A stretch of 64,000 nucleotides of DNA from contig JAMPIQ010000009.1 of assembly GCA_024699855.1 (NCBI GenBank), positions 1 through 64,000 on the forward strand. Direction: 5' to 3'. Made by a program: the position numbers and the translations under genes. Shown here in pieces: positions 381 through 33,122 of the stretch. The notes below the pieces were generated by a model. It did no database searches and was not told where the DNA came from. It worked only from the letters and a program-made list of their open reading frames with translations. This DNA comes from Aphelenchoides besseyi. Its lineage: Eukaryota > Nematoda > Chromadorea > Rhabditida > Aphelenchoididae. Positions within the stretch are counted from its first letter, which is position 1. Each line of letters begins with the position of its first letter.

Positions 381-660
381 CCATACACTCAAACAATCAA
401 TTCCCCCACTGCACAATCAAATGTCAGCGAGCGGGATCGAACTTTCGACCCCCGTTTTTCGGGAGCTCATTGTGACGGGAAGTATTTTATTGGGGTGTGG
501 TTTAGTTATAGAGGTGACAAGACGGTCGCTTCGCTCCCGTCTTTTTGCCGTTAGTGGCGTTGGGTTAGTGGCGTTGGGTTTGTAGCGTGGGTTGGAGGGG
601 AGTTGGAGTTGATAAAGTTGACTACCTGGCGTTTGGGGCCTTCAGCCCGAAAAGTGCAAG
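381..660. repeat. Block R copy 1 (internally deleted)
   Basis: This is a shortened copy of the roughly 400-bp block also found at 9531-9928, 10805-11227 and 19989-20343. It keeps the left end and the box-B-like half of the tRNA-like module (about 426-455). It then jumps straight to the GAGCTCATTGTG part, losing the box A half and the following 130 bases or so. The hairpin with arms AAGACGG and CCGTCTT is present. Confidence 0.7.
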
Positions 661-930
661 ACGGTCAACGGACTTTTGAATTGTGTTCGAAACAGTTTTG
701 ATACGATAAGAATATTGAAGATGAGTTGGGAAGCGAAACATAAAGTTGTGAAAATAAACGGTTCGAGCAGAGTCCTAATCGGCGCAAAAATCGTTTGTAA
801 TGTAAGCGGATTGACTCTTAGTTGAAAAGCCACTTCACGTACGCCAACGTGATCAATCCATCGAAGTGGTGCTTTCGTTTTGAAGGAAGAAAGCGTAAGA
901 AACCTATTTGTGTCAAAGAATGAACGACAA

Positions 931-3900
931 TTAAACATCCATTGAATCGTCGTCATCGGCTGTCGGATTGGCCGGTGGATTGACGGGAGCAGTTGTGGTA
1001 ACGACATTGGAGTTAACTGCGTTCGCGTCAGCTTCCAATTGTGTCACGAATTTCGTGACTTCCGGATTGACAACATTCAACATGAACTTGCTTTGCTGCT
1101 GTTGTGCTTTGGGATCGGTTTGCACATTATCCGGGTTGAAAATGTAGATGTCAGATGCGCGACGAACACGCGACAAAGCCACATACAACTGACCGTGCGC
1201 AAAGACCGGCGAGTTCAAATACAACCCGATTCGCTCCATTGTTTGGCCCTGGGCTTTGTTGATGGTCATTGCGAATGCCAATTTCAAAGGAAATTGAACA
1301 CGACGAAAAGCCACCGTTTGGCGTTGATCGTAGTTGACTTTGCGATCGAAAACTCGACGAACAACGTCGATTTCTTCGCCAGTCAAACCATCGGACTCGA
1401 TGCGGCGAACAGTCACGACGTCCGGTTGCAAATCGGTGACAACTGCCGGAGTGCCGTTGCAGAGTCGGTAGGAGGTGTCGATGTTCGAAATGAACATGAC
1501 TTTTGCGCCGATCTTCAGCTTCAATTGCTGTTGAGCCAAGCCGGTCTCTTCGATTTGACCCAAATACTCGGTCATTGCGTCGACGGCCGAATCGTCCAAC
1601 GGATCGATGGCATTCTCGTCTTCGATCGTGTTGATGGCCTCGTAGACAATCGTTTGTCCGGGCAATTTTTTCAGCAACTCTTCGTTGATCGAGTTGACGG
1701 TCACATTCAACGGTGCAACAATCGCCGAGTTGGACGTGATGTTTCCGCTTTGCAAAAGTGCCGACGGAAACACTCGATCTTGGAGTTCCTGAAGATCGTT
1801 GACCAAATTGAAGTCCGACAAAGCAAGTACTGTCGAGTAGTAGTCGTTTTGTCGCACGATCGGTTTGTTGGCAATTCCGACGTCGCGCAAAAATGAGCGG
1901 AACCGAATCTGATTCGCGTCAGTTCGGTGGTTTTGACGCAGGCACAGGAATTTGATTGTACCCTTGTCATGCTCGGCAATCAGACTTTCGTCGAAGCCGG
2001 AAGCCACGTTTCCGTTTCGAACGATCGGCAGAATTTGTCGAAAGTCGCCGCCAAAAACGATCACCAATCGTCGTTTGACGTACGGACCTTGGCGAACGTC
2101 TTGAATCACACGTTTCATGTAATTGTAGACGTTTTGATGCATTGCCGACGCTTCATCGATCAGAAGAAGTCCCCAGCGGCGAATCGCTTCGGCAGCCCGA
2201 CAATGTTTGTTCATTCGTGATTCCGAGTCCGAAGCGAGGTCTGTTGGAATCATGAATCGGGAATGAACGGTTTGTCCTTGGAACAAAAGCGACGCGGCGA
2301 TTCCCGTCGTTGCGCTAGCGGCAAATGGAATGCCGTGCTCATTGCATTGTCGAATCAACTGATTGTACAATGTCGTCTTGCCAGTTCCACCTTCACCGTG
2401 TAAGAAGAACATTAACGGTGGCGGAATCGGTTGGCCATTTGGAAGTTCGGACTGTTGAATGGAGTGCCAGATCAGGTCGAACGCTTGTTGCTGATCGGAA
2501 CCCAAATTGACGTGCGGAATTTGATTGACGTCATGATAGCGCGTTTGATCGTCGCCGTCCAAAAAATCAACAGCCATTTCGCCGTAAAATTCCGGATTGA
2601 ACGCAGTGACCGTTCCATCCGGTTGTGGCAAATCGAAATCACTCAAAGTGAAATCTCGATTATTCAGATGCCATTCCAAAATACGCAGCGCGATTTGTTC
2701 GGCTCGTTGTTCACGCATACTGTCACTCAAATGTGCGAAACGATTTCCGATTGGTGGTCGCATGAACGGCAGATAATCAAAGTAGAGTTGACGTGGACTT
2801 TGCAACAACTCGGCGCCGTTAATCAAAACCTGTGCGCGAGAAGGAAAATGAATCGACGAATTGGATGACCGGCACGATGATCGAGTGCGTTTCTCCAAAT
2901 CAAATCCGATTCCATTAGACCTATTTGTTGGGCCGCGGTGACAAAGTCTAATTCGCCGAAACCTTTCGGATCGAATTGACGGTAAGTGATTCCGTTCACT
3001 GTCGCCAACTGTTCGAAGTTTTGAACGCACTTCATTCGTAAAACAATTGTTCGCAAAGCCAGCAATTGACGATTTTTGACATTCACTTCATAGATTGCAA
3101 CTACACGTTTACGTTTCAATTGCAATTTCTTGAATGTACGTTTACGCTTATCGTAGTTGTACTCGTAGTAGAAGTCTTTGTACGTCAAATCGGCCGTCTC
3201 ATTCGGATTTTCACGGCAGAATTTCATGTATGCTGTGAAACGCGAATGGACTTCGCTTGTCGAGTTGGCGCGACGAACAATGTCTTCGGCTCGATCACCA
3301 TTTGCGACAATCAAATACGATTCGTTTGGCAAATGGACTCCAATCATGATCACAACATGAGAGAAGTAGAACGGGCCTTTCGACAGCAGATTCATAACTG
3401 CTTCGTAGTCACTACAGTACATCAAAGACATTTGATATCGTGCTTCATTGTAGTTGACCGTTTTATCATCGTTGATTTCGATGAACGGATTGTTTTGAGC
3501 GCCTTTGCTCACAACTTCAATGAACGCCGTCGACATCTGTCCTTTCATGATGTATTTGATCGCGTAGCCGGTGGTGTTTCGCGTGACCACCGCTTCCAGA
3601 TTGGCGTGTCCGTTCCACGTTTTCAATCCATAAGGATTGTAGGGAACGACGTCTTTGTCCGTCAAAACTTTTCCACCCTTTTTCGGGACTGTGAAAGAAC
3701 CCAAATTGGCGGGCAAACGTGCATACTGAATGAATCCGTAATGCACTTGTGTGGTCAGTGATTCACGCATCGGAAAACGGCGTTTGCACGGTGTTTTCGT
3801 TGGATTGGCCGGATCTCGACAAACGCTTTTCTCATTACAATCGTGGAGCATAAATGAAGCTACCAGGTCGTAAAGGCGTTTGTCGATCTTTGGATCGGGA

Positions 3901-6900
3901 ATTCGTGCCGAAATGAATTGATTGACGAATTCGGCGGTTGTTTCCTGTTCGTTCTTATCGATCCAAACCAAAATGTGGGCGTGTGGATTGCCACGTTTTT
4001 GGAATTCGATCGAAAGCAGTGAAGCAGCAAACTTCCCGAAGATGCCTTCACTTTGTTGACCGTACTGAGTTTTCCGGTAATTCGTGCCACGAATCTCGTG
4101 CATCAACATGTTCAACTTGATGATGAAGATCCGCGTCAAAGTGAAGGAGTCCGTTTCCGGATCGGTGCCAAGCATTCGGCATGAGGCAATATGGTCGGGC
4201 CAATTTTTGTTTGCGGTGACCGTGTAGAAGAACGTCGGTGCACCGAGTTCGTGGGCCATTGCCATTCCCTTCGCGTAAGCCCGCTGATTGTATTGCCACG
4301 ACAACTTGTGATGGGGCGGGAATCGGTAAATTTTGCCCAATTGATGACCGGGCAATCGTTTCGCGCAAAATCTTGTCGTAGTGAGTAATCACGTACTGAC
4401 ACGAAACGATTCGTTGATTTTGTGGAACTTTGAAATTGTACCAATCAACTTCCCGACGAACAACCTCGTGGTGGTTCTTGATCAAAAGAATTCGACCGGG
4501 TTTTCCGGTGCTCCAAATTCGATGGATCATTTTGTCCGATTTGCGATGTTGCATTCGATACAGCGTTTGTTCGCGGATCGACGCATACATACGTTGACCT
4601 TTTCGAGTGACCGGATTGTTGTGGTCGATCTCTTCAGGTTCGATGTCTTTCGCATCCAAATCCTCAGCATCCGACTCACAATCCTCATCAAATCCAATTT
4701 CCAGAGCATCGTCCATTGGATTTGGCGAATCGCCGGTATCGGCTTTTTGTGGTGCCGCTTGGAGTTTCAAGTCCATCGTGTACCACAGCTCACCGTATGG
4801 AAACACAATCGGGTTCATGATTGCATCGAGTTGAGGCAAATGAGTCATGAACACCGGCGATTTTTTCATTCGCGGATGCAACCAAACACCTTTGGGAATG
4901 TCCGGTATTGGCACGTTGCGATCTCGCGGTGTGAACAGAACCGCAACTTCCGGTGCTTCGGGTGCGTTCTGTTGACGTTCGTGCAACTGCGGATCGCGCA
5001 AATGATTGGGAGCTTGGCGTTCATCAATGAAGCTCACAATGTAGCGCGGAAACGCAATTCCGTCCGCCATGAGTTCATTGATACGTTCCATGCACATTTT
5101 ATAGCCCTTTGCTATTTGATTATGGTCGGTTAGGAAAGCAATCCATTTTGTGAGGAATGCATTCCGATAGCGAATGTCCAGTCGTTTATAGACTGGATTA
5201 TTGCGCATATTCTCCATGATCATATCCGGAGCTTCGAGCGTGTACTGCTGACCGAAAATTCGAACGGCATCAGCTCGTGACTGAATGTACGAAAGATTAT
5301 TCTGTACAATGCCGTTGATCAGTTGAACCGGTGCTCCGGCAACTCCACTATCGCGTTTTTGAAACGATCGTGAACCAAATGCGGTCAAATTATTGATTTC
5401 GGGAATGTGGGCTTGAAACCATTTTGACATTTCACGCTCATACGCATTGTTTTGGTTCTGATTGAATTTGCCAATGTACAGTAGACGTTCCATCCAATCC
5501 GGATAGCGACGAAACTCGGGCATTTCAATCGTACCATTCGCACAACACTTTGAACTGTTTTTCGGCGTGAAACAAAAACGCCCTACAGTACTTGCACTCG
5601 TAAACCGGCAATCCGACGTCATAAGCGTTCGTGATTGCTTTACGACAAATCGCCGCAGCACACGCCAATGTCGGTCGACCGCGAGATCGATTGGGCAATG
5701 GTGGAAACGAACGTTTCGGCAAATTCTGCATGACTCGCAGTCCACTTCGCAAATTTCTTGATCGACCGACGATTTCGGGATCGAGTCGCGGGCTTGGACC
5801 GTCGGGCAACTTTTTCGACTTGTGTGTTATTGATTGAATCAAATTCAACTTTTTGGCCTTTGATTCTTCGTCTGAATCAATTGGATTGCTGATTGAACTC
5901 AATGACGCGAACGATTTGTTCAATTCGTCCATTTCTTTATCCTCATCAGCTTGAACAACTCCATGGACTTCCAACTCAGCAAATGTGAGTGGCATTTTTT
6001 GTTGACTCGGAGCGCGAGTTTGTTGTTCGATTTCATCATCTTGAAATTGGAAATCCAATAATGCGGCGTCAAAATCGGCTTCTTTGTGATTCCAGTGGTC
6101 GACAAAATCAGTTTTATCATTCGCTTCAGTTCCAGACATCGAGTCTTTGTCACTGTGCGAATCACTGTTGACCTCATGAACTACAGGCAACTCGTTGAAT
6201 GGCACAGCAAAAGGCGAATTATCAAAGAGAACCAAAAGTTGCTCTTTCAGCCATCGACGACGCTGTTCACCGTCCAGATTGTTGCGCGAAAAAATTTTGG
6301 TCTTTGCTTTTTGGTTGTTCAAAAAGTCAATTGTGTTATAGGCGGCGAACGCTGCACAACTATGACCGTCGGTTTGCGGGTCCGAATATTGACTGATATC
6401 GCGGGTGTATGTTCGACAATGTGGCGAAACATTTGCGAGTGGACGAAAAACGTTCAGATCAATCAACGCCAAACGGCTTTCGTACTGAGTCGAATCCGAT
6501 AATTCGGTAAACGAATCGCAATAGAAAAGAACCTCCGTTTGAGAACCGTTGTCGTAATGAAAAATCGTCATAATGAAATGATTTCCGGTAAAAATTGGAG
6601 CCACCAAATACTCGAGTGGTTTGTTTCGTGGTGCCGCAATTAGAAAACTGAGTGGATTGTTGCCAGCAGCGCCTAATTGTTGTCGACTTTGCTCGTTCCA
6701 AAACGATAAGTCCAAGTAGCCGATTGCTCGACTATCGTTCTTGATATAGTTCAAAACACAAAAAGTAATCACTTCGCCTTGAAGATATTGCGGTAGGTCA
6801 ATATCATTGACAAAATCTAACGGCAAAATGGGATTGTATCGACATTTTTGTAATGAAGCTCAATATACTTTTCACGCAAAACATCTTTGACTTCAACAGC

Positions 6901-7727
6901 AGTTGTTTGATAATCGGTTGTCGTGTAGCGCTCGAAATCTTTGTCAATTGCCTTTTCTGGTTCTTGTTCTTCCGCCGATTCAGAATCGTGTGCTGACTCG
7001 ATTGGGAAGTCAGTTTTTCGTTTTTTCGGTCGTCTTGGACCTCCACGGCGTTTTTTTTGGGTGGTCGACCTTTCGGTTTTCCTGTGGGGCGGTTCGAACG
7101 TTGAGTGTCAATTTTTGGCCGTTTAACACCACCACCACCACGCAAACTGTTTCCTTTAAAAGGTAGTGCCGTTTGATTTCCCTTTCCAAAAGGTACTCGC
7201 AGCAGCTTTCCCTTTCCATTAGGTACTCGCAGCAGCTTTCCCTTTCCATTAGGTACTCGCAGCAGCTTTCCCTTTCCATTAGGTACTCGCAGCAGCTTTC
7301 CCTTTCCATTAGGTACTCGCAGCAGCTTTCCCTTTCCATTAGGTACTCGCAGTGGCTTTCCCTTTCCAAAAGGTACTCGCAGCAGCTTTCCCTTTCCATT
7401 AGGTACTCGCAGTGGCTTTCCCTTTCCAAAAGGTACTCGCAGCAGCTTTCCCTTTCCATTAGGTACTCGCAGTGGCTTTCCCTTTCCATTAGGTACTCGC
7501 AGTGGCTTTCCCTTTCCAAAAGGTACTCGCAGCAGCTTTCCCTTTCCATTAGGTACTCGCAGCAGCTTTCCCTTTCCATTAGGTACTCGCAGCAGCTTTC
7601 CCTTTTTCATAGGTACTTGCCGCAAATTTTGCGGTAACTCTAACCACAACATTTGCCGCTCACTCCAAATGTTATGGTCCTCGGCATCGGAGCCCGAGGC
7701 GCTCAAATCGCTGAATTGCGAGTTCAT
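931..7727 (-). pseudogene. Helitron C48-protease/Rep/helicase polyprotein, copy 1, frameshifted
   Basis: This gene encodes the Helitron transposition protein, which nicks and unwinds DNA for rolling-circle transposition. The order from the N terminus (7727) is: a variable start containing a Lys-rich 10-residue repeat (7190-7612), an AT-hook-like GKPKGRPPKK stretch, a Ulp1-like cysteine protease domain, a Cys-rich Helitron N-terminal region, a Rep domain, and a SF1/Pif1-like helicase. Rep shows FYTVTANKNWP, the metal-binding PHAH motif and the two-tyrosine GYAIKYIMKG. The helicase shows GEGGTGKT, LLIDEAS and YVALSRVR. Comparison with copy 2 places frameshifts near 6850, 5563, 4360 and 2838, mostly one-base homopolymer changes. 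The frame is read from ATG at 7727, which follows a TTTTTCAG acceptor-like site. Either the copy is dead or the assembly has errors. Confidence 0.85.
7188..7612. repeat. 30-bp minisatellite inside the Helitron gene, about 14 units
   Basis: The unit is GGTACTCGCAGCAGCTTTCC followed by CTTTCCATTA. It has two linked variants, AGCAGC or AGTGGC at one site and CATTA or CAAAA at another. Because 30 is a multiple of 3, the array stays open in several frames. In the polyprotein frame (minus) it encodes a basic decamer, GKGKLLRVPN or GKGKPLRVPF. Copy 2 has only about four degenerate units of the ancestral type (VPFKGNQT) at the same place, so the array expanded in copy 1. Confidence 0.95.
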
Positions 7728-8126
7728 TTTCTCTGAAAAATAACAATGAAAACGATAAAAGGAAAGAATCGCCACGACAACTCGAGTAGAAGAATTCACG
7801 TCACGATTGATAATTCGCACGCGCCAAACTAAGGATCGAAACGCGGGATCGGGAAAAGCGCAGATTTGCGCGAAATGAAGAGGTCGAACAACGTACTGAA
7901 CGATCAAAAGGCCATTGGTAAATGAGTTGGCATTTAAGATCGAAGCAGAAAATCAAAGATTCCCCGCCTCTTACGATCGCGTTTGTTTTCGTTTGTTCTC
8001 TTTGAAGTTGCCGAAAGGCATTCGTTCGTTTCATACAAATGGCCAATAACCAACAATAATTTAAGTTTATTGAATACCAAATAAAAACAACATTAAATAC
8101 CAAAGAAACAACAATTACACTAATCA

Positions 8127-8566
8127 TTAACGTTGGGGCGGTGGTGTTGTGACGTTCAAACGTTCTTCGAGTTGTGTTCGAAGTTTCTGTATTTCCAATC
8201 TTTGAGCTTCGTTTTCGCGCTTCTGTTGACGAAGTTCTTCTTCGTTATCGCGGTTCACTACTGGTTTGGTGGCCCGTGATTGTTGGGACTTTCCAATTTG
8301 TTGTCGCAAATTTGCGGCTTTTTGCCGACGATTCCTGAAATGAAATGTTCAGTTTGTGTCCTCATTTCACAACTTACGTTTTCCGTTTGTTTTTGCGTAT
8401 TTCCTTCGAAGGCTTCTTTCTTGTTTTTCATTTCCATAATTTCGATTGTTTCCACCATTCCGATGGTTTCCACCATAGCGATTGTGGCTTCCGGCGGTTT
8501 CGTGAAAGTGAAAGTCTGAAATCCTCATGAACAATGATTTCACATTAAGCACTCACCGATCTTCAT
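8127..8566 (-). pseudogene. Helitron accessory basic coiled-coil protein gene, copy 1
   Basis: Three exons are inferred by comparison with copy 2: 8557-8566 (MKI plus one base), 8378-8515 and 8127-8334. Introns are 41 and 43 nt with GT-AG ends. The protein starts MKIDFHFHETAGS and has a Gly/Asn/Arg-rich segment (about residues 12-35). It then has a basic stretch ending near NRRQKAANLRQQ and a C-terminal heptad-like coiled coil rich in Glu, Gln, Arg and Leu. Exon and intron positions and phases match the copy 2 gene exactly, although the nucleotide sequences are strongly diverged. One base appears to be missing in an A-run near 8417, which shifts frame between the Gly/Asn part and the basic part. 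Function is unknown. The basic-plus-coil layout resembles a bZIP-like DNA-binding dimer, but that is inference. Confidence 0.6.
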
Positions 8567-9530
8567 TGTCACAGTTGAATGGAAACCTGAAAAATCATAG
8601 GATTATAATCGTAAAATACACAAAGCACGAAAGAACTAAAAACGATAACAACGAAACCACCGAGACGACCAAGCAACCAATCGTTATTACAATTGCCGAT
8701 GAACGAAGTTGTGCTGTAAAAATTGCGGAGATGTTTGCCATTGAATTCTCTACAAATCATTACGTATCCAATCGGTATTCAGAAGAAAAAGAAAACGAAC
8801 CTCGTGTGCAATCGACAATACACTTTAAACTTCGAATTGGTTTTATCGGCTTTACACTCGTGAATAGTCCGCTTTACGTCAAATACTTAACCGTCGGGCC
8901 AATTGTACGCAACGGTTCGAAACGTACGAACGTGAATTCAAAATAAACTACGGTGTTTTTGAATCGATAAGTCGACTTCAACATACTTCTCCTCGATTAT
9001 GAAGGTTTCATTTTAACGCATATACGTTTTAACGCATATACGAATCTAGTTAACGTCAATTTGTAATGTAAAAAAAACCGAATACAAACACATGAACTCA
9101 AACGAAAACTCGACTTTCAATACAATGGACCCTCAACTTTGAATTGGTTCGCTGGTGTTGTACTTGTTGGAAAACCGTTGATTGTTGGAAAACCGTTGAT
9201 AATGATGATGATGCTAATTGTATACAATGTTTAATTTAACGGATTTAACAAAATTCTATGGATTCAGTTTTATGGAAAATCCTAACTCTATGTTACAGTA
9301 TGTCATTGGTCAAACTGAGAGAATTGATGAGTTTGAAATGAAGAATAGCACTTCCTACAACACACACACAACAACTTTGATTTTCGTTCGGGGAGAAGTG
9401 AAATCGTCGGACGTTTGAATTGAACGAAATGATAAAAGTAGTGATTTTGAAGATTTGAAAATCGAAGTTGTAATTCCAAACTGTAAAATACCATTCGATA
9501 GCACTGAGTAGCACTCGATATTACACTCAA
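8567..9530. other. Helitron copy 1 upstream region, no supported gene
   Basis: This AT-rich stretch lies upstream of the accessory gene. It contains short direct repeats: TTTTAACGCATATACG twice near 9012-9043, and TGTTGGAAAACCGTTGAT twice near 9164-9200. The plus-strand open frame at 8527-8946 has no recognisable domain and overlaps the accessory gene's first exon, so I do not call it. Confidence 0.5.
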
Positions 9531-9928
9531 ACAATCAATTCCCCCACTGTGCACAATCAAATGTCAGCGGGCGGGATCGAACTTTCGACCCCCGGCGCCA
9601 AAAATCCGGCGCACTCACCACTCGGCCAAAAAATGTTGACTTTTGAACGACCGCAAAAGGTGCATTTTTTCGGTATGTTTTTGTAGACGATGATCAGAAT
9701 TTTATTTGAAATTTGGAATCTGGAAGAAAAGTTGCTGGGAGAGTTGTTTTTTTTGGGAGCTCATTGTGGCGGGAAGTATTTTATTTTGGTGTGGTTTAGT
9801 TATAGAGGTGACAAGACGGTCGCGTCGCTCCCGTCTTTTGCCGTTAGTGGCGTTGGGTTGGAGGGGAGTTGGAGTTCATAAAGTTGACTACCTGGCGTTT
9901 GGGGCCTTCAGCCCGAAAAGTGCAAGAC
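9531..9928 (-). repeat. Block R copy 2, with tRNA-like Pol III module
   Basis: This block is shared with 10805-11227. On the minus strand, about 9566-9629 reads like a tRNA. It has a box-A-like TGGCCGAGTGG followed by a GCGCC/GGCGC stem-loop in the anticodon-arm position, then a box-B-like AGTTCGATCCC. The acceptor stem is absent, so it resembles a tRNA-derived SINE head more than a functional tRNA. The copy ends at GTGCAAGAC, where it diverges from the copy at 11227. Confidence 0.75.
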
Positions 9929-10420
9929 CAACGACTGCTTTGCCAACAAAAACACTCAAAATCCACAGGCTGTCACTCTCCAAATGGCTTAAAAGACTCC
10001 TCCACGATCGCCCTTCGGTCGATCGTTCCCCCGCTTTTTCGTCCCTTTGGATCGCTCCGGGTTTTGAGGATACGATTCCTCGGATTCAGAGGCTGTCATT
10101 CACCGAATAGCTCAAAAGACTCCTCCACGTTTTATTGTGGTGTGGTTCAATTATGGGAGTGATCGAAAACAGATTATCAATGTACGTCACCGAAGCCGCA
10201 TTGGAAATACTCCAAACTCAGTGAATTCAGTAGACATATTCGTTTATCATACATTTTATCGAGCGCAAATCACCATCCTGAGTATTAACCAATGAGCTGA
10301 AACAACAAAAGAAGTCAGTCCAACAACCTACAAAACCACATGAACTCGACTTCCATAGCGAAATCAACATTCAATCCAGGACGATGAACCCAAAATTAAA
10401 TAGCGACGCCAAATCTTTGC
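9929..10420. other. Spacer between Helitron copies
   Basis: No gene is supported. A 39-bp segment, GGCTGTCACTCTCCAAATGG onward (9968-10006), is repeated in diverged form at 10091-10129, a period of 123 bp. Confidence 0.5.
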
Positions 10421-10804
10421 ACCCAATGGTAGCAATCTTTAGGAAACAAACGATTAGAACTGATTGTGATAACCTTGCGCGTCAACAACCAATTAATCGA
10501 AAATCATATACGCTAAGTTAACAATCAACATTTACGCACTTAAGTAGCGAACCGAAACCTCAGTTCGTTGATCATCACAATACGAATCTTCAATCGACAA
10601 CCTTTAACACAACAACCTCAAAGTTCAAACTTCACGGCAATTTTAGATATAAAGAAATATGCGAAAGTAGCGATATTCAAATTATGGACCGTAAAGTGGC
10701 GACATGTATACTATAATACACTGTAAGAACCGAATATAGGCTGTAAGTAAGAATTGAATATACACTGTAAGAATTGAATAGAATCAAAAACTACTCAGCC
10801 ATAC

Positions 10805-11227
10805 ACTCAAACAATCAATTCCCCCACTGTGCACAATCAAATGTCAGCGGGCGGGATCGAACTTTCGACCCCCGGCGCCAAAAATCCGGCGCACTCACCA
10901 CTCGGCCAAAAAATGTTGACTTTTGAACGACCGCAAAAGGTGCATTTTTTCGGTATGTTTTTGTAGACGATGATCAGAATTTTATTTGAAATTTGGAATC
11001 TGGAAGAAAAGTTGCTGGGAGAGTTTTTTTTTTTTGGGAGCTCATTGTGGCGGGAAGTATTTTATTTTATTTTGGTGTGGTTTAGTTATAGAGGTGACAA
11101 GACGGTCGCTTCGCTCCCGTCTTTTGCCGTTAGTGGCGTTGGGTTTGTAGCGTGGGTTGGAGGGGAGTTGGAGTTCATAAAGTTGACTACCTGGCGTTTG
11201 GGGCCTTCAGCCCGAAAAGTGCAAGAC
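10805..11227 (-). repeat. Block R copy 3, with tRNA-like module and hairpin
   Basis: This is the most complete block. The tRNA-like module lies on the minus strand at about 10845-10908, with box-A-like TGGCCGAGTGG and box-B-like AGTTCGATCCC. It is followed toward the gene by a GAGCTCATTGTGGCGGG segment and a hairpin with arms AAGACGG and CCGTCTT near 11098-11124. It then runs into the 3' flank of the polyprotein gene. Confidence 0.8.
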
Positions 11228-11494: not shown

Positions 11495-14400
11495 TTAAAC
11501 ATCCATTGAATCGTCGTCATCGGCTGTCGGATTGGCCGGTGGATTGACGGGAGCAGTTGTGGTAACGACGTTGGAGTTAACTGCGTTCGCGTCAGCTTCC
11601 AATTGTGTCACGAATTTCGTGACTTCCGGATTGACAACATTCAACATGAACTTGCTTTGCTGCTGTTGTGCTTTGGGATCGGTTTGCACATTATCCGGGT
11701 TGAAAATGTAGATGTCAGATGCGCGACGAACACGCGACAAAGCCACATACAACTGGCCGTGCGCAAAGACCGGCGAGTTCAAATACAACCCGATTCGCTC
11801 CATTGTTTGGCCCTGGGCTTTGTTGATGGTCATTGCGAATGCCAATTTCAAAGGAAATTGGACACGACGAAAAGCCACCGTTTGGCGTTGATCGTAGTTG
11901 ACTTTGCGATCGAAAACTCGACGAACAACGTCGATTTCTTCGCCAGTCAAACCATCGGACTCGATGCGGCGAACAGTCACGACGTCCGGTTGCAAATCGG
12001 TGACAACTGCCGGAGTGCCATTGCAGAGTCGGTAGGAGGTGTCGATGTTCGAAATGAACATGACTTTTGCGCCGATCTTCAGCTTCAATTGCTGTTGAGC
12101 CAAGCCGGTCTCTTCGATTTGACCCAAATACTCGGTCATCGCGTCGACGGCCGAATCGTCCAACGGATCGATGGCATTCTCGTCTTCGATCGTGTTGATG
12201 GCCTCGTAGACAATCGTTTGTCCGGGCAATTTTTTCAGCAACTCTTCGTTGATCGAGTTGACGGTCACATTCAACGGTGCAACAATCGCCGAGTTGGACG
12301 TGATGTTTCCGCTTTGCAAAAGTGCCGACGGAAACACTCGATCTTGGAGTTCCTGAAGATCGTTGACCAAATTGAAGTCCGACAAAGCAAGTACTGTCGA
12401 GTAGTAGTCGGTTTGTCGCACGATCGGTTTGTTGGCAATTCCGACGTCGCGCAAAAATGAGCGGAACCGAATCTGATTCGCGTCAGTTCGGTGGTTTTGA
12501 CGCAGGCACAGGAATTTGATTGTACCCTTGTCATGCTCGGCAATCAGACTTTCGTCGAAGCCGGAAGCCACGTTTCCGTTTCGAACGATCGGCAGAATTT
12601 GTCGAAAGTCGCCGCCAAAAACGATCACCAATCGTCGTTTGACGTACGGACCTTGGCGAACGTCTTGAATCACACGTTTCATGTAATTGTAGACGTTTTG
12701 ATGCATTGCCGACGCTTCATCGATCAGAAGAAGTCCCCAGCGGCGAATCGCTTCGGCAGCCCGACAATGTTTGTTCATTCGTGATTCCGAGTCCGAAGCG
12801 AGGTCTGTTGGAATCATGAATCGGGAATGAACGGTTTGTCCTTGGAACAAAAAAGCGACGCGGCGATTCCCGTCGTTGCGCTAGCGGCAAATGGAATGCC
12901 GTGCTCATTGCATTGTCGAATCAACTGATTGTACAATGTCGTCTTGCCAGTTCCACCTTCACCGTGTAAGAAGAACATTAACGGTGGCGGAATCGGTTGG
13001 CCATTTGGAAGTTCGGACTGTTGAATGGAGTGCCAGATCAGGTCGAACGCTTGTTGCTGATCGGAACCCAAATTGACGTGCGGAATTTGATTGACGTCAT
13101 GATAGCGCGTTTGATCGTCGCCGTCCAAAAAATCAACAGCCATTTCGCCGTGAAATTCCGGATTGAATGCAGTGACCGTTCCATCCGGTTGTGGCAAATC
13201 GAAATCACTCAAAGTGAAATCTCGATTATTCAAATGCCATTCCAAAATTCGCAACGCGATTTGTTCGGCTCGTTGTTCGCGCATACTGTCACTCAAATGT
13301 GCGAAACGATTTCCGAGTGGTGGTCGCATGAACGGCAGGTAATCAAAGTACAGTTGGCGTGGACTTTGCAACAACTCGGCGCCGTTAATCAAAACCTGCG
13401 CGAAAAGGAAAATGAATCGACGAATTGGATGACCGGCACGTTGATCGAGTGCGTTTCTCCAAATCAAATCCGATTCCATTAGACCCATTTGTTGGGCCGC
13501 GGTGACGAAGTCTAATTCGCCGAAACCGTTCGGATCGAATTGACGGTAAGTGATTCCGTTCACTGTCGCCAACTGTTCGAAGTTTTGAACGCACTTCATT
13601 CGTAAAACAATTGTTCGCAGAGCCAACAATTGACGATTTTTGACATTCACTTCATAGATTGCAACTACACGTTTACGTTTCAATTGCAATTTCTTGAATG
13701 TACGTTTACGCTTATCGTAGTTGTACTCGTAGTGGAAGTCTTTGTACGTCAAATCGGCCGTCTCATTCGGATTTTCACGGCAGAATTTCATGTATGCTGT
13801 GAAACGCGAATGGACTTCGCTTGTCGAGTTGGCGCGACGAACAATGTCTTCGGCCCGATCGCCATTTGCGACAATCAAATACGATTCGTTCGGCAAATGG
13901 ACTCCAATCATGATCACAACATGAGAGAAGTAGAACGGGCCTTTCGACAGCAGATTCATAACTGCTTCGTAATCACTACAATACATCAACGACATTTGAT
14001 ATCGTGCTTCATTGTAGTTGACCGTTTTATCATCGTTGATTTCGATGAACGGATTGTTTTGAGCGCCTTTGCTCACAACTTCAATGAACGCCGTCGACAT
14101 CTGTCCTTTCATGATGTATTTGATCGCGTAGCCGGTGGTGTTTCGCGTGACCACCGCTTCCAGATTGGCGTGTCCGTTCCACGTTTTCAATCCATAAGGA
14201 TTGTAGGGAACGACGTCTTTGTCCGTCAAAACTTTTCCACCCTTTTTCGGGACTGTGAAAGAACCCAAATTGGCGGGCAAACGTGCATACTGAATGAATC
14301 CGTAATGCACTTGTGTGGTCAGTGATTCAGGCATCGGAAAACGGCGTTTGCACGGTGTTTTCGTTGGATTGGCCGGATCTCGACAAACGCTTTTCTCATT

Positions 14401-17400
14401 ACAATCGTGGAGCATAAATGAAGCTACCAGGTCGTAAAGGCGTTTGTCGATCTTTGGATCGGGAATTCGTGCCGAAATGAATTGATTGACGAATTCGGCG
14501 GTTGTTTCCTGTTCGTTCTTATCGATCCAAACCAAAATGTGGGCGTGTGGATTGCCACGCTTTTGGAATTCGATCGAAAGCAGTGAAGCAGCAAACTTCC
14601 CGAAGATGCCTTCACTTTGTTGACCGTACTGAGTTTTCCGGTAATTCGTGCCACGAATCTCGTGCATCAACATGTTCAACTTGATGATGAAGATCCGCGT
14701 CAAAGTGAAGGAGTCCGTTTCCGGATCGGTGCCAAGCATTCGGCATGAGGCAATATGATCGGGCCAATTTTTGTTTGCGGTGACCGTGTAGAAGAACGTC
14801 GGTGCACCGAGTTCGTGGGCCATTGCCATTCCTTTCGCGTAAGCACGCTGATTGTATTGCCACGACAATTTGTGATAGGGCGGGAATCGGTAAATTTTGC
14901 CCAATTGATGACCGGGCAATCGTTCGCGCAAAATCTTGTCGTAGTGAGTAATCACGTACTGACACGAAACGATTCGTTGATTTTGTGGAACTTTGAAATT
15001 GTACCAATCAACTTCCCGACGAACAACCTCGTGGTGGTTCTTGATCAAAAGAATTCGACCGGGTTTTCCGGTGCTCCAAATTCGATGGATCATTTTGTCC
15101 GATTTGCGATGTTGCATTCGATACAACGTTTGTTCGCGGATCGACGCATACATACGTTGACCTTTTCGAGTGACCGGATTGTTGTGGTCGATCTCTTCAG
15201 GTTCGATGTCTTTCGCATCCAAATCCTCAGCATCCGACTCACAATCCTCATCAAATCCAATTTCCAGAGCATCGTCCATTGGATTTGGCGAATCGCCGGT
15301 ATCGGCTTTTTTTGTGGTGCCGCTTGGAGTTTCAAGTCCATCGTGTACCACAGCTCACCGTATGGAAACACAATCGGGTTCATGATTGCATCGAGTTGAG
15401 GCAAATGAGTCATGAACACCGGCGATTTTTTCATTCGCGGATGCAACCAAACACCTTTGGGAATGTCCGGTACTGGCACGTTGCGATCTCGCGGTGTGAA
15501 CAGAACCGCAACTTCCGGCGCTTCCGGAGCGTTCTGTTGACGTTCGTGCAACTGCGGATCGCGCAAATGATTGGGAGCTTGGCGTTCATCAATGAAGCTC
15601 ACAATGTAGCGCGGAAACGCAATTCCGTCCGCCATGAGTTCATTGATACGTTCCATGCACATTTTATAGCCCTTTGCTATTTGATTATGGTCGGTTAGGA
15701 AAGCAATCCATTTTGTGAGGAATGCGTTCCGATAGCGAATGTCCAGTCGTTTATAGACTGGATTATTGCGCATATTCTCCATGATCATATCCGGAGCTTC
15801 GAGCGTGTACTGCTGACCGAAAATTCGAACGGCATCAGCTCGTGACTGAATGTACGAAAGATTATTCTGTACAATGCCGTTGATCAGTTGAACCGGTGCT
15901 CCGGCAACTCCACTATCGCGTTTTTGAAACGATCGTGAACCAAATGCGGTCAAATTATTGATTTCGGGAATGTGGGCTTGAAACCATTTTGACATTTCAC
16001 GCTCATACGCATTGTTTTGGTTCTGATTGAATTTGCCAATGTACAGTAGGCGTTCCATCCAATCCGGATAGCGACGAAACTCGGGCATTTCAATCGTACC
16101 ATTCGCACAACACTTTGAACTGTTTTCGGCGTGAAACAAAAACGCCCTACAGTACTTGCACTCGTAAACCGGCAATCCGACGTCATAAGTGTTCGTGATT
16201 GCTTTACGACAAATCGCCGCAGCACACGCCAATGTCGGTCGACCGCGAGATCGATTGGGCAATGGTGGAAACGAACGTTTCGGCAAATTCTGCATGACTC
16301 GCAGTCCACTTCGCAAATTTCTTGATCGACCGACGATTTCGGGATCGAGTCGCGGGCTAGGACCGTCGGGCAACTTTTTCGACTTGTGTGTTATTGATTG
16401 AATCAAATTCAACTTTTTGGCCTTTGATTCTTCGTCTGAATCAATTGGATTGCTGATTGAACTCAACGACGCGAACGATTTGTTCAATTCGTCCATTTCT
16501 TTATCCTCATCAGCTTGAACAACTCCATCGACTTCCAACTCAGCAAATGTGAGTGGCATTTTTTGTTGACTTGGAGCGCGAGTTTGTTGTTCGATTTCAT
16601 CATCTTGAAATTGGAAATCCAATAATGCGGCGTCAAAATCGGCTTCTTTGTGATTCCAGTGGTCGACAAAATCAGTTTTATCATTCGCTTCAGTTCCAGA
16701 CATCGAGTCTTTGTCACTGTGCGAATCACTGTTGACCTCATGAACTACAGGCAACTCGTTGATCGGCGCAGCAAAAGGCGGATTATCAAAGAGAACCAAA
16801 AGTTGCTCTTTCAGCCATCGACGACGCTGTTCACCGTCCAGATTAGTGCGCGAAAAAATTTTGGTCTTTGCTTTTTGGTTGTTCAAAAAGTCAATTGTGT
16901 TATAGGCGGCGAACGCTGCACAACTGTGACCGTCGGTTTGCGGGTCCGAATATTGACTGATATCGCGGGTGTATGTTCGACAATGTGACGAAACATTTGC
17001 GAGTGGACGAAAAACGTTCAGATCAATCAACGCCAAACGGCTTTCGTACTGAGTCGAATCCGATAATTCGGTAAACGAATCGCAATAGAAAAGAACCTCC
17101 GTTTGAGAACCGTTGTCGTAATGAAAAATCGTCATAATGAAATGATTTCCGGTAAAAATTGGAGCCACCAAATACTCGAGTGGTTTGTTTCGTGGTGCCG
17201 CAATTAGAAAACTGAGTGGATTGTTGCCAGCAGCGCCTAATTGTTGTCGACTTTGCTCGTTCCAAAACGATAAGTCCAAGTAGCCGATTGCTCGACTATC
17301 GTTCTTGATATAGTTCAAAACACAAAAAGTAATCACTTCGCCTTGAAGATATTGCGGAAGGTCAATATCATTGACAAAAGCTAACGGCAAAATGGGATTG

Positions 17401-18020
17401 TATCGACATTGATTGTAATGAAGCTCAATGTACTTTTCGCGCAAAACATCCTTGACTTCAACAGCGGTTGTTTGATAATCGGTTGTTGTGTAGCGCTCGA
17501 AATCGTTGTCATTAGCCTTTTCTGGTTCTTGTTCTTCCAGCAATTCAGAATCATTTGCTGACTCGATTGGGAAGTCAGTTTTCGGTTTTTTCGGTCGTCC
17601 TGAACCTCCGCGGCGTTTTTTGGGCGGTCGACCTTTCGGTTTTCCTGTGGGACGGTTTGAACGTTGAGTGTCATCTCTCGACCGTTTAACACCTCCACCA
17701 CCGCCACGCAAACTGTTTCCCTTAAAAGGTACTGCCGTTTGATTTCCCTTTAAAGGTACTCCATAATGGTTTCCCTTAAAAGGTACTCCCGTTTGATTTC
17801 CCTTAAAAGGTACTCTCGCTTGATTTCCCGCCTGCGGTACTTTCAACACATTCGAATTTTCCTCTAAACATACCTTTTCACTTACCTCCACTATTTCGCA
17901 CCAAAAATCGTATCCATTTCCTTGCGGTCGTTTCAACGCAAACCATCGCCGCTTGCACCAATGGTTGACGTCCTCGGCAATCGAACCCGAGGCGCTCTTG
18001 TCACTTCCTTGTTGCATCAT
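11495..18020 (-). pseudogene. Helitron C48-protease/Rep/helicase polyprotein, copy 2, two frameshifts
   Basis: This is a single-exon frame of about 2,170 codons starting MMQQGSDKSASGS at 18020. Domains in order: four degenerate VPFKGNQT-type repeats (residues 60-100), an AT-hook-like motif (about 125-145), and a Ulp1/C48 protease with His293, Asp314, Gln361 and Cys367 (NHFIM, YCDSF, DPQTDGHSC). A CxxC zinc-binding segment near residue 615 (ECKYC, then KCC) and the Helitron N-terminal region follow. Rep has FYTVTANKNWP (14762-14797), PHAH (14526-14556) and GYAIKYIMKG (14104-14133). The helicase has GEGGTGKT (12943-12966), IDEAS (12709-12734) and YVALSRVR (11721-11748). Relative to copy 1 there are two-base homopolymer insertions near 15310 and 12848, the second just after Walker A. 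All catalytic residues remain, so it is either recently dead or misassembled. Confidence 0.88.
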
Positions 18021-18310
18021 AATCTAAATAGTTTTTTAATCAACCAACAGCTCGTTAGCATAAATACAAATGGCTACAAACCAAATGTTTTCGACTCAAC
18101 GTATAAAATCAAAAAATTATTTTATTCAGTCAAACTTAACAAACGTAAACATTGACAGACAAATTAATTTGGTTCAATCAAAAAGAAGGTGATCTATTAG
18201 GTTGAACAAAATGGTTTCCCATAACCGTCGAAAGTCGATGACAACATAACTCTTGATGGTACAGGAGGCAAATTAACAGACAGATAAACGGTACGAAGAA
18301 AAAAATCGAG

Positions 18311-18880
18311 TCACGATTGGATATTTGAGTTGTGAGAATTAAAACCAATCATTTCAGTTGGGACTTCTTCAACAGTTAATGGTTTTGTAATCAAAGTTAT
18401 TTGCTTTATCTGTTCCTTCAGTTGTTGAATCTCCAATTTTTGTTGTCGCAATTCTTTCGCTTGCGCTGCCACCATGATTTCTTGATCGTCCGGCCGCTTG
18501 CTGCTCACCGTTTCAACTTCATTCATCATTGTAGTCGAATTTGCAGATGGTCGAGTAGTTGGATTCGTTTTCGACTGGTTTCGAGTTGAATTGGCAGCCG
18601 GAACAATCTCGCCGGAACGTTTTAAAGCGTTCGCGATCCGATTTCTAAAAAAAAAAAACACAGATGCAAACCAAAGAAAAGTCTTCACTTACTCGCGACG
18701 ACGGTTCTTTTTCAACTCACGATTGGATTTTTTGAAATTCGTATTTTGATTGTTAGAACCCTGATTGCGACCGTTGAAACCCTGATTGCGAAAGCTGCTC
18801 TTGCCGGTACCATGGAAATGAATAGCTAAACAGCGCAGTTAATGGGCACAAACTCGATCTTACAACATACCGAGTCTCAT
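18311..18880 (-). CDS. Helitron accessory basic coiled-coil protein, copy 2
   Basis: Exons are 18871-18880, 18693-18825 and 18311-18644. Introns are 45 and 48 nt with GTATGT and GTAAGT donors and TTTAG acceptors. The total is 477 nt (158 residues), with frame kept across all joins. The protein starts MRLAIHFHGTGKSS. It has a Gln/Asn/Gly-rich stretch (about 15-35), a basic segment with RELKKNRRRENR (about 39-50), a Ser/Thr/Asn linker, and a coiled coil of Leu/Ile/Gln/Lys heptads (KELRQQKLEIQQLKEQIKQI, about 115-135). It lies about 290 bp upstream of the polyprotein start on the same strand. Copy 1 has the same gene with identical exon phases, so it looks like a conserved Helitron component. 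I do not recognise the family; a bZIP-like DNA-binding or dimerisation role is inferred. Confidence 0.7.
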
Positions 18881-19982
18881 TTCTTCGACATAGATCAGAA
18901 TCTCAAACAACCTAACTCGTTCATTCCAACATTTACAAAGCTCATTCGACTGGCCAATGAAGAATGCAACCAAACCGGCGACACGAACAAATAATGAATG
19001 AAACGACAGCCAACGGAAAAACAACACCAATACGATCGACTACAAACTCAAACGACTATCAAACAGAACAGCACTAATAATACAACGAACAGTATTTGGT
19101 GTTGGTGTCGTTTAACTTTAGGACGAATTGGGCGGAGAGAAAAACCGCCGATTCATTGGCAATCGAACGGCACAATTGAAGAAAAGAAACGCAATATGTA
19201 GTACTTGAAAACGATAGCGAGATTAAAGGGATGAAAATGAAAGCAAAATGACTCGTAGATTAGGATCAAATCGCCAGACGTTCATAAGTAAGCAAGAAGT
19301 GGCGAAATAATTATTGCGCAACATACGAACGACACAACTGTACGAAAAACAAACAAACGCAATTTGTAGTAGTTGAAAACGAACGATAGTGGGGATCAAA
19401 GGGATGAAAGTGATGAAAGCAGATAAGAATCAAATCGCCAGACGTTCATAATTGAGCAAGAAGTCACAAAATAATCAACCGCGCAACATACGAAAACTCA
19501 TCAAACAATATCATTTGTGCGTTAAACTATCGAACAGTTTCCGAGTTTCGGAGTATACGAATTTTTAACATAAAAAAAACGATTGAACTCCTATGATTGG
19601 GTATAAGGTAATCATAAAATTTGAAAATCAGTACAATCGCATAGTTTTATTTGCTAAAACTACACATTGAACAACAATGAATGATCCACGAATTCGTCGA
19701 CGAAGAAAAGAAGAAACGATCAATTTGCAACCTAAAACGAAAACAAACTTATCAGCAACATTATTAGAACTTACAGTGAATCGAAAGTGTTTTCACAAAA
19801 CCATAAAGGAAAAATAACTCTAAACTTTAACATCCGTGCAATTCACGTTTGTCCACAAACTCTTCAACAAAAACCGCAAAAAAAAACGAAATGAATCGTA
19901 TCTAAAAAAAATATGCCAATTCAAATTATGAACCGTAAAAAGTAGCGATATGTACACCGTAATATGCTGTAAGAATCGAATA
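18881..19982. repeat. Helitron copy 2 upstream region with 165-bp tandem duplication
   Basis: No gene is supported. Two diverged copies of about 150 bp lie at 19184-19333 and 19349-19497. Shared landmarks include CGCCAGACGTTCATAA, GAGCAAGAAG or AAGCAAGAAG, and GCGCAACATACGAA. Such duplicated upstream segments could be promoter or replication-end repeats, but nothing in the sequence proves this. Confidence 0.6.
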
Positions 19983-19988
19983 AAACCA

Positions 19989-20343
19989 AACAATCAATTC
20001 CCCCACTGTGCACAATCAAATGTTAGCGGGCGGGATCGAACTTTCGACCCCCGGCGCCAAAAATCCGGCGCACTCACCACTCGGCCAAAAAATGTTGAGT
20101 TTTGAACGACCGCAAAAGGGGCATTTTTTCGGTATGTTTTTGTAGACGATGATCAGAATTTTATTTGAAATTTGGAATCTGGAAGAATTTTTGGTCAGGG
20201 CTTTTTTTTTTCGGAAGCTCATTGTGACGGGAAGTATTTTATTGGGGTGTGGTTTAGTTATAGAGGTGATCAGGGCTTTTTTTTTTCGTGATCTCATTGT
20301 GACGGGAAGTATTTTATTGGGGTGTGGTTTAGTTATAGAGGTG
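19989..20343 (-). repeat. Block R copy 4, with local 72-bp duplication
   Basis: The tRNA-like module lies on the minus strand at about 20025-20088. The distal part, from TCAGGGCTTTTTTTTTTCG to GTTATAGAGGTGA, is duplicated in tandem (about 20196-20270 and 20271-20343). Unlike the other copies it stops at TATAGAGGTGA, immediately before where the AAGACGG hairpin would begin. Mariner-derived sequence starts there instead. Confidence 0.7.
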
Positions 20344-31100: not shown

Positions 31101-33122
31101 ATGTTTCTCCGTCGTCGCTGTGAGGGCTGGAGCCTCTGCTTCATGCTCTTCCTGCTCTTCAAGCCGACCGCGATCGCTACTTCGGGCAAAGAATGTCTTG
31201 AGGACGATGGCAGTTCCTTGTGAGTTCTTGACTCAAGCCTCTTGACTCCTCTTTCCAGGAATTACAACGGCAAGTGCAACAAGTTCAACGTCGACCTCGA
31301 AACCGACGATGAATCTTTGAGCATCAAGATGGATTACGCGAAGGACATTGTAGCAACTCTGGCTCCGTACTTGACGCGCTGAAAACTGTTCAATTTGCAC
31401 TTGTTTCAGGTTCACAATGACAGTCGGCGGATGTGACATCACAGGCAAGATTTCCAACAAGAATGGTGATGGCTCGTTTATTCGTGAAAGTAAACAAATT
31501 ATTCACAACACTATTACGTCTAAATTTCAGGCACCAACGCACGTCTTCCGACAACGTTCCAGGTTTCCAAGGACAAGATTACTTACGGTGCTGGCATTGC
31601 GATATCCTGTTCGGTGAAGTTCGAATCAATGGGCGAGAAAGGGGGCTTCAAGGTGGCAGTCAAATACAACCCCGACAAAGATCTTCCCGGGTTGCGACTG
31701 ACTTTCGTGAGTTCAGAATCTCGATTGTACAACTTCTGTTCTTTAGGACAACGCGAAGTTCATTGGAGATCGTGAAGAGGAAAGTGACTGGTCGTGGAGT
31801 GGATGGCGCATTTACGTTTGCATTGCCGGCGTGTGAGTTCAACACGAACTACTGGAAGGTCCATTTTGTTTCAGTCTTGCGGGTGTGCTCATCGTAGGGA
31901 GTATCATCTTTTACTTATGCTATCGCAGGCGCCAAAACATCGCGAATCGTGACGCTGCTCTACAAGCGGGCACTTCTACGACCGATCTGACGACGGCGAC
32001 TTCAAAGCTCAGCACCACGAACGCATCTCAAGTCTCGTCCAACACTACGATGGCCGCTCCGCTACCTGCTCTCAAGACTCAAAGCACGGTCGGTCAGCAA
32101 GCTGTTCCGCAACCAGCGAACGTCGGTCAGCAAGCTGCTCCGCAACCAGCAAACGTCGGCCAGGAAGCTGCTCCGGAACAACGGGCCGCTCCACCGCTAC
32201 CGGTTCAAGCGCAGGAGAGCAAGTCGACCGAACGCGACCACACTGGCGAGCTGATTGTGCAGAACATGGAAAGGCAAGCACGAGAGAAGGAAGCAGAAGA
32301 GAAGAAAGAAAAGGAAGAGAGAGAGAAGCAAGAGAAGGAGAAGCAAGAGAAGGAGAAGCAAACACCACGAGCCAAGAAGACTTCTAGCAACGATAAGCTA
32401 TCGCGGGGATCGAACACTTCGAAGGGATCGAAAAGCTCAAAGGGATCAAAGAAGCACAAGAAGAAAGATGGCAAGTTGAAGGCGGCAGAAGAGGGCGGTG
32501 CAGTGGCCAAGAAAACGACGGAAAACCAGCCGGGAACATCGAAGGAAGGAGATGGAACCAAGAACCAAGATGAGGCGTCTGTGCTCAAACTGGACAAAAC
32601 TAAATCAGAACATTCGGTGATGGGCGATTTGGAGGCCGACCCGGCTCAAAATGTGGCAAAACAAGATGTACGTGAAGAACCACGACAAGAGCCACGAGAG
32701 GAAGCACGAGAGGCAGCACCGCCGCCAGTAAGTTTCCGAAATCCCAATCAGTTAGCCGTTCAACTATTTCAGAAAGAAAACCCGAGGAGCTGGGACAGAG
32801 AGTGGCCAAAAACTGCACCAACTGAAGCGTACAAGCAATACGTTCGCGAACATTACCTTAACAATTACGAAGAGCTCGTTGAATACTCCAACAGACACCC
32901 GATCACTCAAGAAACCTTAAATGCTTTGGGTCCCTGGTACGACGAGATCAGGAAAGCTGACGCGGACTACGTAGGTTACTCAACCCGAATGCTGACAAGG
33001 GTTGTTTTCAGACGAATCCGGCAAGGAAAGCCCCGACTTTTCCCACCGACTGCTATTTCTTTGGATTCATCGGAATGCTCGCTAACGAACGTGGCTTGAA
33101 ATGGCCACCAAGTAACAATTGA
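31101..33122 (+). CDS. Single-pass membrane protein with long charged cytoplasmic tail, copy A
   Basis: Eight exons (31101-31219, 31259-31375, 31410-31489, 31531-31706, 31747-31832, 31875-32727, 32773-32970, 33012-33122) give 579 residues in one frame. One intron (31376-31409) uses a GC donor. The signal peptide is WSLCFMLFLLFKPTAIA. An extracellular domain of about 180 residues follows, with few cysteines (KECLED, GKCNKF, GGCDIT, ISCSVK). The membrane helix is VLAGVLIVGSIIFYLCY and then RRRQ. The tail carries QPANVGQ repeats, a Lys/Glu-rich coiled-coil-like stretch, a SKGSKSSKGS segment and a folded-looking C-terminal portion (SWDREWPKTAPTEAYKQYV). I do not recognise the family. The architecture suggests a surface receptor or adhesion protein. 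Confidence 0.7.

Follow-up and report, generated by a model that had tools for sequence, protein, structure and literature searches.

We identified a small, intron-containing gene as an accessory gene of one Helitron family in the nematode Aphelenchoides besseyi. It is a real protein gene under purifying selection in this family; its two versions diverged long ago and are found on a common RepHel backbone. Both versions occur in the window, by which we mean the whole 64,000-nt stretch of contig JAMPIQ010000009.1 (positions 1 to 64,000) analysed here.

Structure of the small gene

The version carried by the Helitron H2 occupies positions 18880-18311 on the minus strand, directly upstream of RepHel and on the same strand, and comprises three exons of 10, 133, and 334 nt that encode a basic protein of 158 amino acids. 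Exon 1 (18871..18880) reads ATG AGA CTC G and is followed by a 45-nt GT-AG intron in phase 1 (18826..18870). Exon 2 (18693..18825) encodes a Gly/Asn-rich stretch and the first part of a predicted basic helix; beyond a 48-nt GT-AG intron in phase 2 (18645..18692), exon 3 (18311..18644) supplies the end of this helix, a disordered linker, a coiled-coil helix, and the stop codon. The counterpart in the Helitron H1 (8566-8127, minus strand) has its exons at 8557..8566, 8378..8515, and 8127..8334. Its second exon measures 138 nt in the window copy, where a 5-nt insertion breaks the frame, and 133 nt in three open H1-type sister copies, which also share with H2 the 10-nt exon 1 and intron phases 1 and 2. 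The first-pass annotation had described a three-exon gene at the same relative place and strand in both Helitrons, with identical intron positions and phases, and this description holds.

Exon 1 is 10 nt long at all 16 loci compared (L001-L008 and L039-L046). Intron lengths vary freely, intron 1 being 45-48 nt in H2-type and 41-42 nt in H1-type copies and intron 2 being 48 nt in the window H2 and 40-44 nt in other copies, while H2-type exon 2 takes lengths of 112, 133, or 154 nt, that is, in 21-nt steps. A public A. besseyi gene model, M3Y96_00837900, corresponds to the spliced H2-type protein from another copy, with one residue different at a site that varies between H2-type copies. The deposited H1-type model, M3Y96_01029400, begins instead at an ATG within intron 1 and omits exon 1. 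We prefer the spliced start for the H1-type gene because the diverged copy L046 has lost the intron-1 ATG yet keeps exon 1 and its splice sites.

The Helitrons and their ends

H2 (20269-11098), a short element E of 1.29 kb (9812..11097), and H1 (518..9811, delimited by blastn comparison and end junctions) are arranged head to tail on the minus strand; E has the same ends and lacks the small gene. The three head-to-tail junctions in the window, at 11098/11097, 9812/9811, and 518/517, read ...AAGACGGGAGCGAAGCGACCGTCTTG followed directly by TCACCTC..., with one base at 9812/9811 differing from the other two. The RepHel gene of H2 (11495..18020, minus strand), which combines Helitron_like_N and PIF1 helicase regions, is frame-broken in the window copy; the domain matches of RepHel are to Helitron_like_N (PF14214, 4.1e-24) and PIF1 (1.8e-21). 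These domains identify H1 and H2 as Helitrons, as does a 3' hairpin that directly abuts a 5'-TC end at the head-to-tail junctions.

The elements begin with TCACCTC... and end in the hairpin AAGACGG...CCGTCTTG. The 5' end of H2 (19987..20269, minus strand) begins TCACCTCTATAAC, and at its 3' end (11098..11123, minus strand) the terminal hairpin is followed by a G and then immediately by the 5'-TC of the next element. We did not find the features of a Helitron1-type end (3'-CTRR, a hairpin 10-12 nt inside, and insertion at A/T), the hairpin here lying at the extreme end, which reads ...CTTG. Among the 12 of 52 3' ends that were fetched, the 3' flank was T in all seven read ends without a following element, and the 5' flank was variable. 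The H1/H2 family is a Helitron family with non-canonical ends.

Genome-wide, there are 52 exact 3' ends, and head-to-tail arrays proceed in steps of approximately 1.28 kb (the size of E) and 9.2 kb (the size of an autonomous element). On C3, four E-sized steps in succession adjoin an H1. H1 and H2 are neighbours in several arrays, such neighbours being too few for a statistical test. By eye, we also observed that the starts of the elements, including E (20269-19987, 9811-9528, 11097-10802, and about 454-390, minus strand), contain a tRNA-like stretch, TGGCCGAGTGGTGAGTGCGCC...GTTCGATCCC, reminiscent of Pol III A and B boxes. Neither ARAGORN nor Rfam called a tRNA at these starts; the Rfam scan of 1-21500 and the tRNA scan of the whole window were without any hit.

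Exchange of a 5' cassette

The small gene lies in a 2.2-kb 5' cassette of H2 (17816..19986, minus strand) that also contains the upstream region and the start of RepHel. Across 17816 to 19986, blastn detected no nucleotide similarity between H1 and H2. On the inner side, identity is 88% at 17815-17426 and then 97.2-100% in 400-nt steps from 17426 to approximately 11430; on the outer side, the common 5' end starts beyond 19986 and is 93.7% identical over 284 nt, and the 3' hairpin is the same. The earlier description of the two Helitrons as highly diverged in nucleotide sequence is therefore accurate for the 5' part and incorrect for RepHel and the ends, which are nearly identical.

The type of the small gene and the type of the RepHel N-terminus are coupled at all 16 loci. 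Deeper in RepHel, copies are not sorted by cassette type, in a comparison of 302 columns from 15 loci that contains few differences and is correspondingly weak: six H1-type copies stand one base from the H2-type copies L002-L004, and the H2-type copies L006 and L007 stand six bases away. Two old cassette versions thus occupy one shared backbone, cassettes having been swapped between elements. An apparent proximity of the RepHel of L008 to H1-type copies was discarded, as it arose from comparing sequences of different length. A 30-nt minisatellite in the RepHel N-terminus is located close to the crossover. In the H1 RepHel reading frame (window approximately 7190-7620), we counted by eye about 14 minisatellite units encoding LRVPNGKGKL-like repeats, variable between copies. 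The upstream region of H2 contains one pair of direct repeats approximately 165 nt apart; no comparable pair was present in the H1 cassette, which has just tandem duplications of 16 and 18 nt besides some weaker pairs.

Selection and the relationship between the two versions

In five H2-type pairs, dN/dS was 0.28-0.46 in the true frame (one-sided p from 0.011 to 1.4e-5; the pairs share sequences and are hence not independent), as against 0.68-1.52 in frames 1 and 2 of the same alignment. A ratio near 1, which the first-pass annotation had named as evidence against its proposal of a genuine protein under selection, was thus not observed. Young pairs are near neutral (0.67 for L001-L005, and 2.53 on 10 changes for L006-L007), as expected for copies decaying after insertion. 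Between the H1 and H2 versions, synonymous sites are saturated, and the proteins align over their full length with a score of 131, compared with 45 +/- 7.5 for shuffled sequences, none of 5000 of which reached it.

Copies and distribution in the genome

Counting the window's own copies, DNA searches matched the H2 gene region at 12 places and the H1 gene region at 11. Six of the eight H2-type whole-gene loci are open to full length, L006 being counted among them provided that its altered intron-2 acceptor still functions, while L003 and L008 are shortened. Three of the eight H1-type loci are open; the others comprise three with a change in the length of an A run, the window copy with its 5-nt insertion, and L046 with several indels. 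Two further loci, L047 and L048, preserve the H1-type gene from exon 1 through intron 1 and partway into exon 2.

When 601 bases of the Rep region were used as a DNA query, 24 matches were returned. Sixteen of these extend across at least 569 bases with 94-100% identity, and the small gene lies 3.3-4.2 kb upstream in 12 of the 16. Three of the remaining four are truncated, their similarity ending inside RepHel at window positions 16466 (C2:7798 kb), 16092 (C3:7916 kb), and 15158 (C2:14345 kb). The fourth, L072 (C1:2816 kb), is a decayed copy with insertions that is similar to approximately window position 16344, and the small gene was not found in the 5 kb read there. Because the four misses are three truncated copies and one decayed copy, no intact element without the small gene was seen among the 16 well-matched Rep regions. 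Absence of the gene from family members, which the first annotation had set out as the other observation that would speak against it, was accordingly not what we encountered. None of the 16 Rep regions accompanies the gene loci L005, L008, L044, or L045.

Strong genomic matches to the small gene all fall in the two cassette types. A protein search additionally recovered five weak relics (E 4e-9 to 4e-8), of which four, scoring equally, are on C3 and the fifth is on C2, with about 40% identity over the C-terminal part and an internal stop; the only one with surroundings read, L053, is broken and has a third, diverged RepHel approximately 2 kb downstream, while L054 was covered across the gene itself. 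Among 5.8 billion proteins, no relatives outside A. besseyi were found and only the two A. besseyi models were returned, in a search that needs shared 5-residue words and could therefore miss fast-evolving relatives. In the genome and protein searches, the small gene is a separate gene that is conserved in its Helitron family and not found elsewhere.

A possible trans-spliced two-gene unit

In H2, an acceptor-like CTATTTAG (18024..18032, minus strand) lies 3 nt before the RepHel ATG (18020), and the stretch separating the two genes contains an AATAAA (18121..18126, minus strand), 106 nt upstream of the same ATG. Comparable signals recur among the copies. H1-type loci carry TTTTCAG 20-22 nt before the small ATG (8/8) and 5-6 nt before the RepHel ATG (7/8, lost in L046), a heptamer of which 10.5 kb of control sequence contains two instances. 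In H2-type loci, the small ATG is preceded at 21-25 nt by TTTTAG or TTTGAG (7/8, with loss in L005), and the RepHel start is preceded by TATTTAG at a distance of a few bases. AATAAA is present between the genes in 14 of 15 measured loci: it stands 106-107 nt before the RepHel ATG in six of seven measured H2-type loci (none in L007; L006 unmeasured) and at 343-350 nt in all eight H1-type loci, as compared with an operon spacing of about 100 nt.

Rfam identified 18 full-length SL1-like RNA gene matches, whose scores of 38-44 bits do not reach the gathering score (75), and in both of the SL1-like genes that were read an SL1-like leader, GGTTTATTAACCCAAGTTTGAG, and a AAATTTTGG site are legible. 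The canonical SL1 pattern had no exact match in the genome, because the A. besseyi leader differs. Since acceptor-like sites precede both ATGs, AATAAA lies between the genes, and SL1-like RNA genes are present, the layout suggests that the small gene and RepHel may form a trans-spliced two-gene unit.

Predicted features of the small protein

AlphaFold2, run with a two-sequence input, predicted a basic helix at residues 38-58 and a second helix at 99-133, both mostly confident, with the remainder disordered (pTM 0.23). The net charge is +8 over residues 35-60 in H2 and +11 over residues 35-62 in H1, and Gly and Asn make up 44-56% of residues 10-34. The second helix contains about three heptads, forming a predicted short coiled coil that is weaker in H1. 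Searches of Pfam, NCBIfam, and PDB and a fold search gave no family, structure, or fold match above their cut-offs, DUF1978 (2.4e-4) lying below its own over the basic and coiled stretch. OB-fold single-stranded DNA-binding domains were likewise not found by Pfam, predicted structure, or fold search.

The bZIP-like DNA binder suggested by the first-pass annotation was rejected as a candidate: approximately 40 disordered residues separate the basic and coiled-coil helices in H2, N-x7-[RK] with the fixed zipper spacing is absent from both proteins, and Pfam returned no bZIP match at E up to 10. Like bZIP factors, the small protein has a basic region and a later coiled coil; unlike them, it has no continuous helix.

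STPR repeats, which are of a DNA-binding kind, offer a comparison within the same genome. Among five RepHel proteins from about four families, only L051 reached the Pfam STPR cut-off (27.2 versus 27.0 bits), L050 (15.1 bits) and L052 fell below it, and the repeats were absent from the RepHel of the window's family and of L053. The L050 and L051 proteins, from the Helitron family that is most abundant in A. besseyi, likewise place basic helical repeats on a Helitron protein, but inside RepHel rather than in a separate small gene. The two members of that family that were compared become similar only from the RepHel ATG on; their upstream DNA is unrelated, and there is no such gene. This contrast, drawn across about four families, fits a small protein that has taken over nucleic-acid binding. 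Our searches found no paper mentioning both Helitron and STPR. The RepHel of L050, from the abundant family, also has a weak Ulp1-like match below cut-off, and the L050 and L051 RepHels begin with a basic stretch. Beside the L050 Helitron, positions 1-910 contain open reading frames that we take to resemble the protein-primed DNA polymerase B of Maverick elements.

Possible roles of the small protein

We hypothesize, with about even confidence, that the small protein is a nucleic-acid-binding, self-associating helper of RepHel, the binding being suggested by composition and predicted helices. The small gene would be the first cistron of an RNA that is cut into two messages by SL trans-splicing and polyadenylation. 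The Gly/Asn/Arg-rich tail and the strongly basic helix may contact single-stranded DNA or RNA, with the C-terminal coiled coil providing self-association, such that the protein might coat or present the displaced strand or assemble the RepHel complex. It could thereby fill the place of RPA in plant and some animal Helitrons. Because the gene, the upstream region, and the RepHel start travel together, the protein's own RepHel N-terminus and upstream region, and not the element ends, are its probable partners.

A role in copy control, in which binding of the protein to the upstream region of its own cassette would repress or tune a shared promoter, with H1 and H2 as regulation groups, seems to us rather unlikely. 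Small Cop repressors tune the cop-rep operons of rolling-circle plasmids, and here too a gene for a small basic protein immediately precedes a replication gene in the same orientation and may be co-transcribed with it, although the A. besseyi gene is eukaryotic and intron-containing. The gene and its upstream region diverge and move as a block while the ends and RepHel are common, and the H2 upstream region has its pair of direct repeats. However, no DNA-binding domain was recognised, H1 is without a comparable pair, and the linkage could be a mere matter of position, with crossover near the minisatellite. A more far-reaching reading, to which we assign a small probability, is that the cassette is an interchangeable identity module: the small protein would recognise its own upstream DNA or RepHel N-terminus and set copy number, so that H1 and H2 would be mutually blind groups on one freely recombining backbone within the same arrays, akin to the incompatibility or immunity groups of plasmids and phages.

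We consider it improbable that the gene is a captured host gene or a passenger without a role in transposition. Its introns would fit a chromosomal gene, it evolves fast, and Helitrons are described as capturing genes in one report (PMC6431247). Yet strong matches are confined to the two cassette types, the five weak ones carry an internal stop, the single relic with surroundings read lies upstream of a diverged RepHel (the other four being unplaced), and dN/dS is well below 1. Still less probable is that the exons merely belong to the RepHel message (as its 5' leader or an alternative N-terminus), a reading to which their strand, their position directly upstream, and the acceptor-like sites might point: an in-frame stop closes the small reading frame, AATAAA intervenes in nearly all measured loci, selection acts on the amino acids of the small gene, and the two deposited models are separate proteins. 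Least probable of all is a bZIP-like factor recognising Helitron ends, as had been proposed at first. The basic region does precede the coiled coil in both proteins, but the spacing and the domain search argue against bZIP, and the ends are common to both types and to the gene-less element E while the two small proteins are very different.

Relation to known Helitron accessory genes

Animal Helitrons typically encode one protein, RepHel, according to a published account (PMC4067079). Reported extras include RPA, OTU, SET, and Helitron-only open reading frames, again from partial texts (PMC6431247, PMC9741609, PMC5148889, PMC4067079, PMC4778049, PMC11118728). Helitron accessory genes are thus already known; in the portions of these sources consulted, the intron-bearing, operon-like, cassette-borne form was not found described, and our literature search turned up no nematode Helitron described with such a gene. 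The RPA-like proteins of plant and some animal Helitrons and Helentrons are, in the excerpts seen, likewise a second, smaller nucleic-acid-binding protein beside RepHel (PMC4067079, PMC6431247), binding being a prediction in the present case. They differ in that domain searches find their OB folds, whereas the A. besseyi protein has no domain match and consists of two predicted helices and disorder; the RPA reading frame of a mite Helentron is described without introns, and the A. besseyi gene has two. An extra upstream reading frame in FoHeli3 of Fusarium oxysporum is, as far as the accessible text describes it, also without known domains and Helitron-only (PMC5148889). As described, it lies in opposite orientation, whereas the A. 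besseyi gene is on the strand of RepHel, is split by two introns, and is spaced from RepHel much as in an operon.

A second gene that is under selection, carries introns, and sits in an operon-like arrangement would be an additional component of rolling-circle transposition. The exchange of cassettes constitutes a natural experiment in which two helper versions are combined with almost the same enzyme and ends, and the presence of open copies of both types in the genome makes the proposed role testable by swaps and removals.

Other features of the window

Elsewhere in the window, positions 31421-33099 and 34557-36237 form a direct duplication of approximately 3.1 kb containing a charged, repeat-rich reading frame, one copy of which is frame-broken. 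By eye, reading frames at 41681-42733, 58151-59223, 48951-51021, and 60353-63082 resemble mariner transposases and LINE-type endonuclease/reverse transcriptase.
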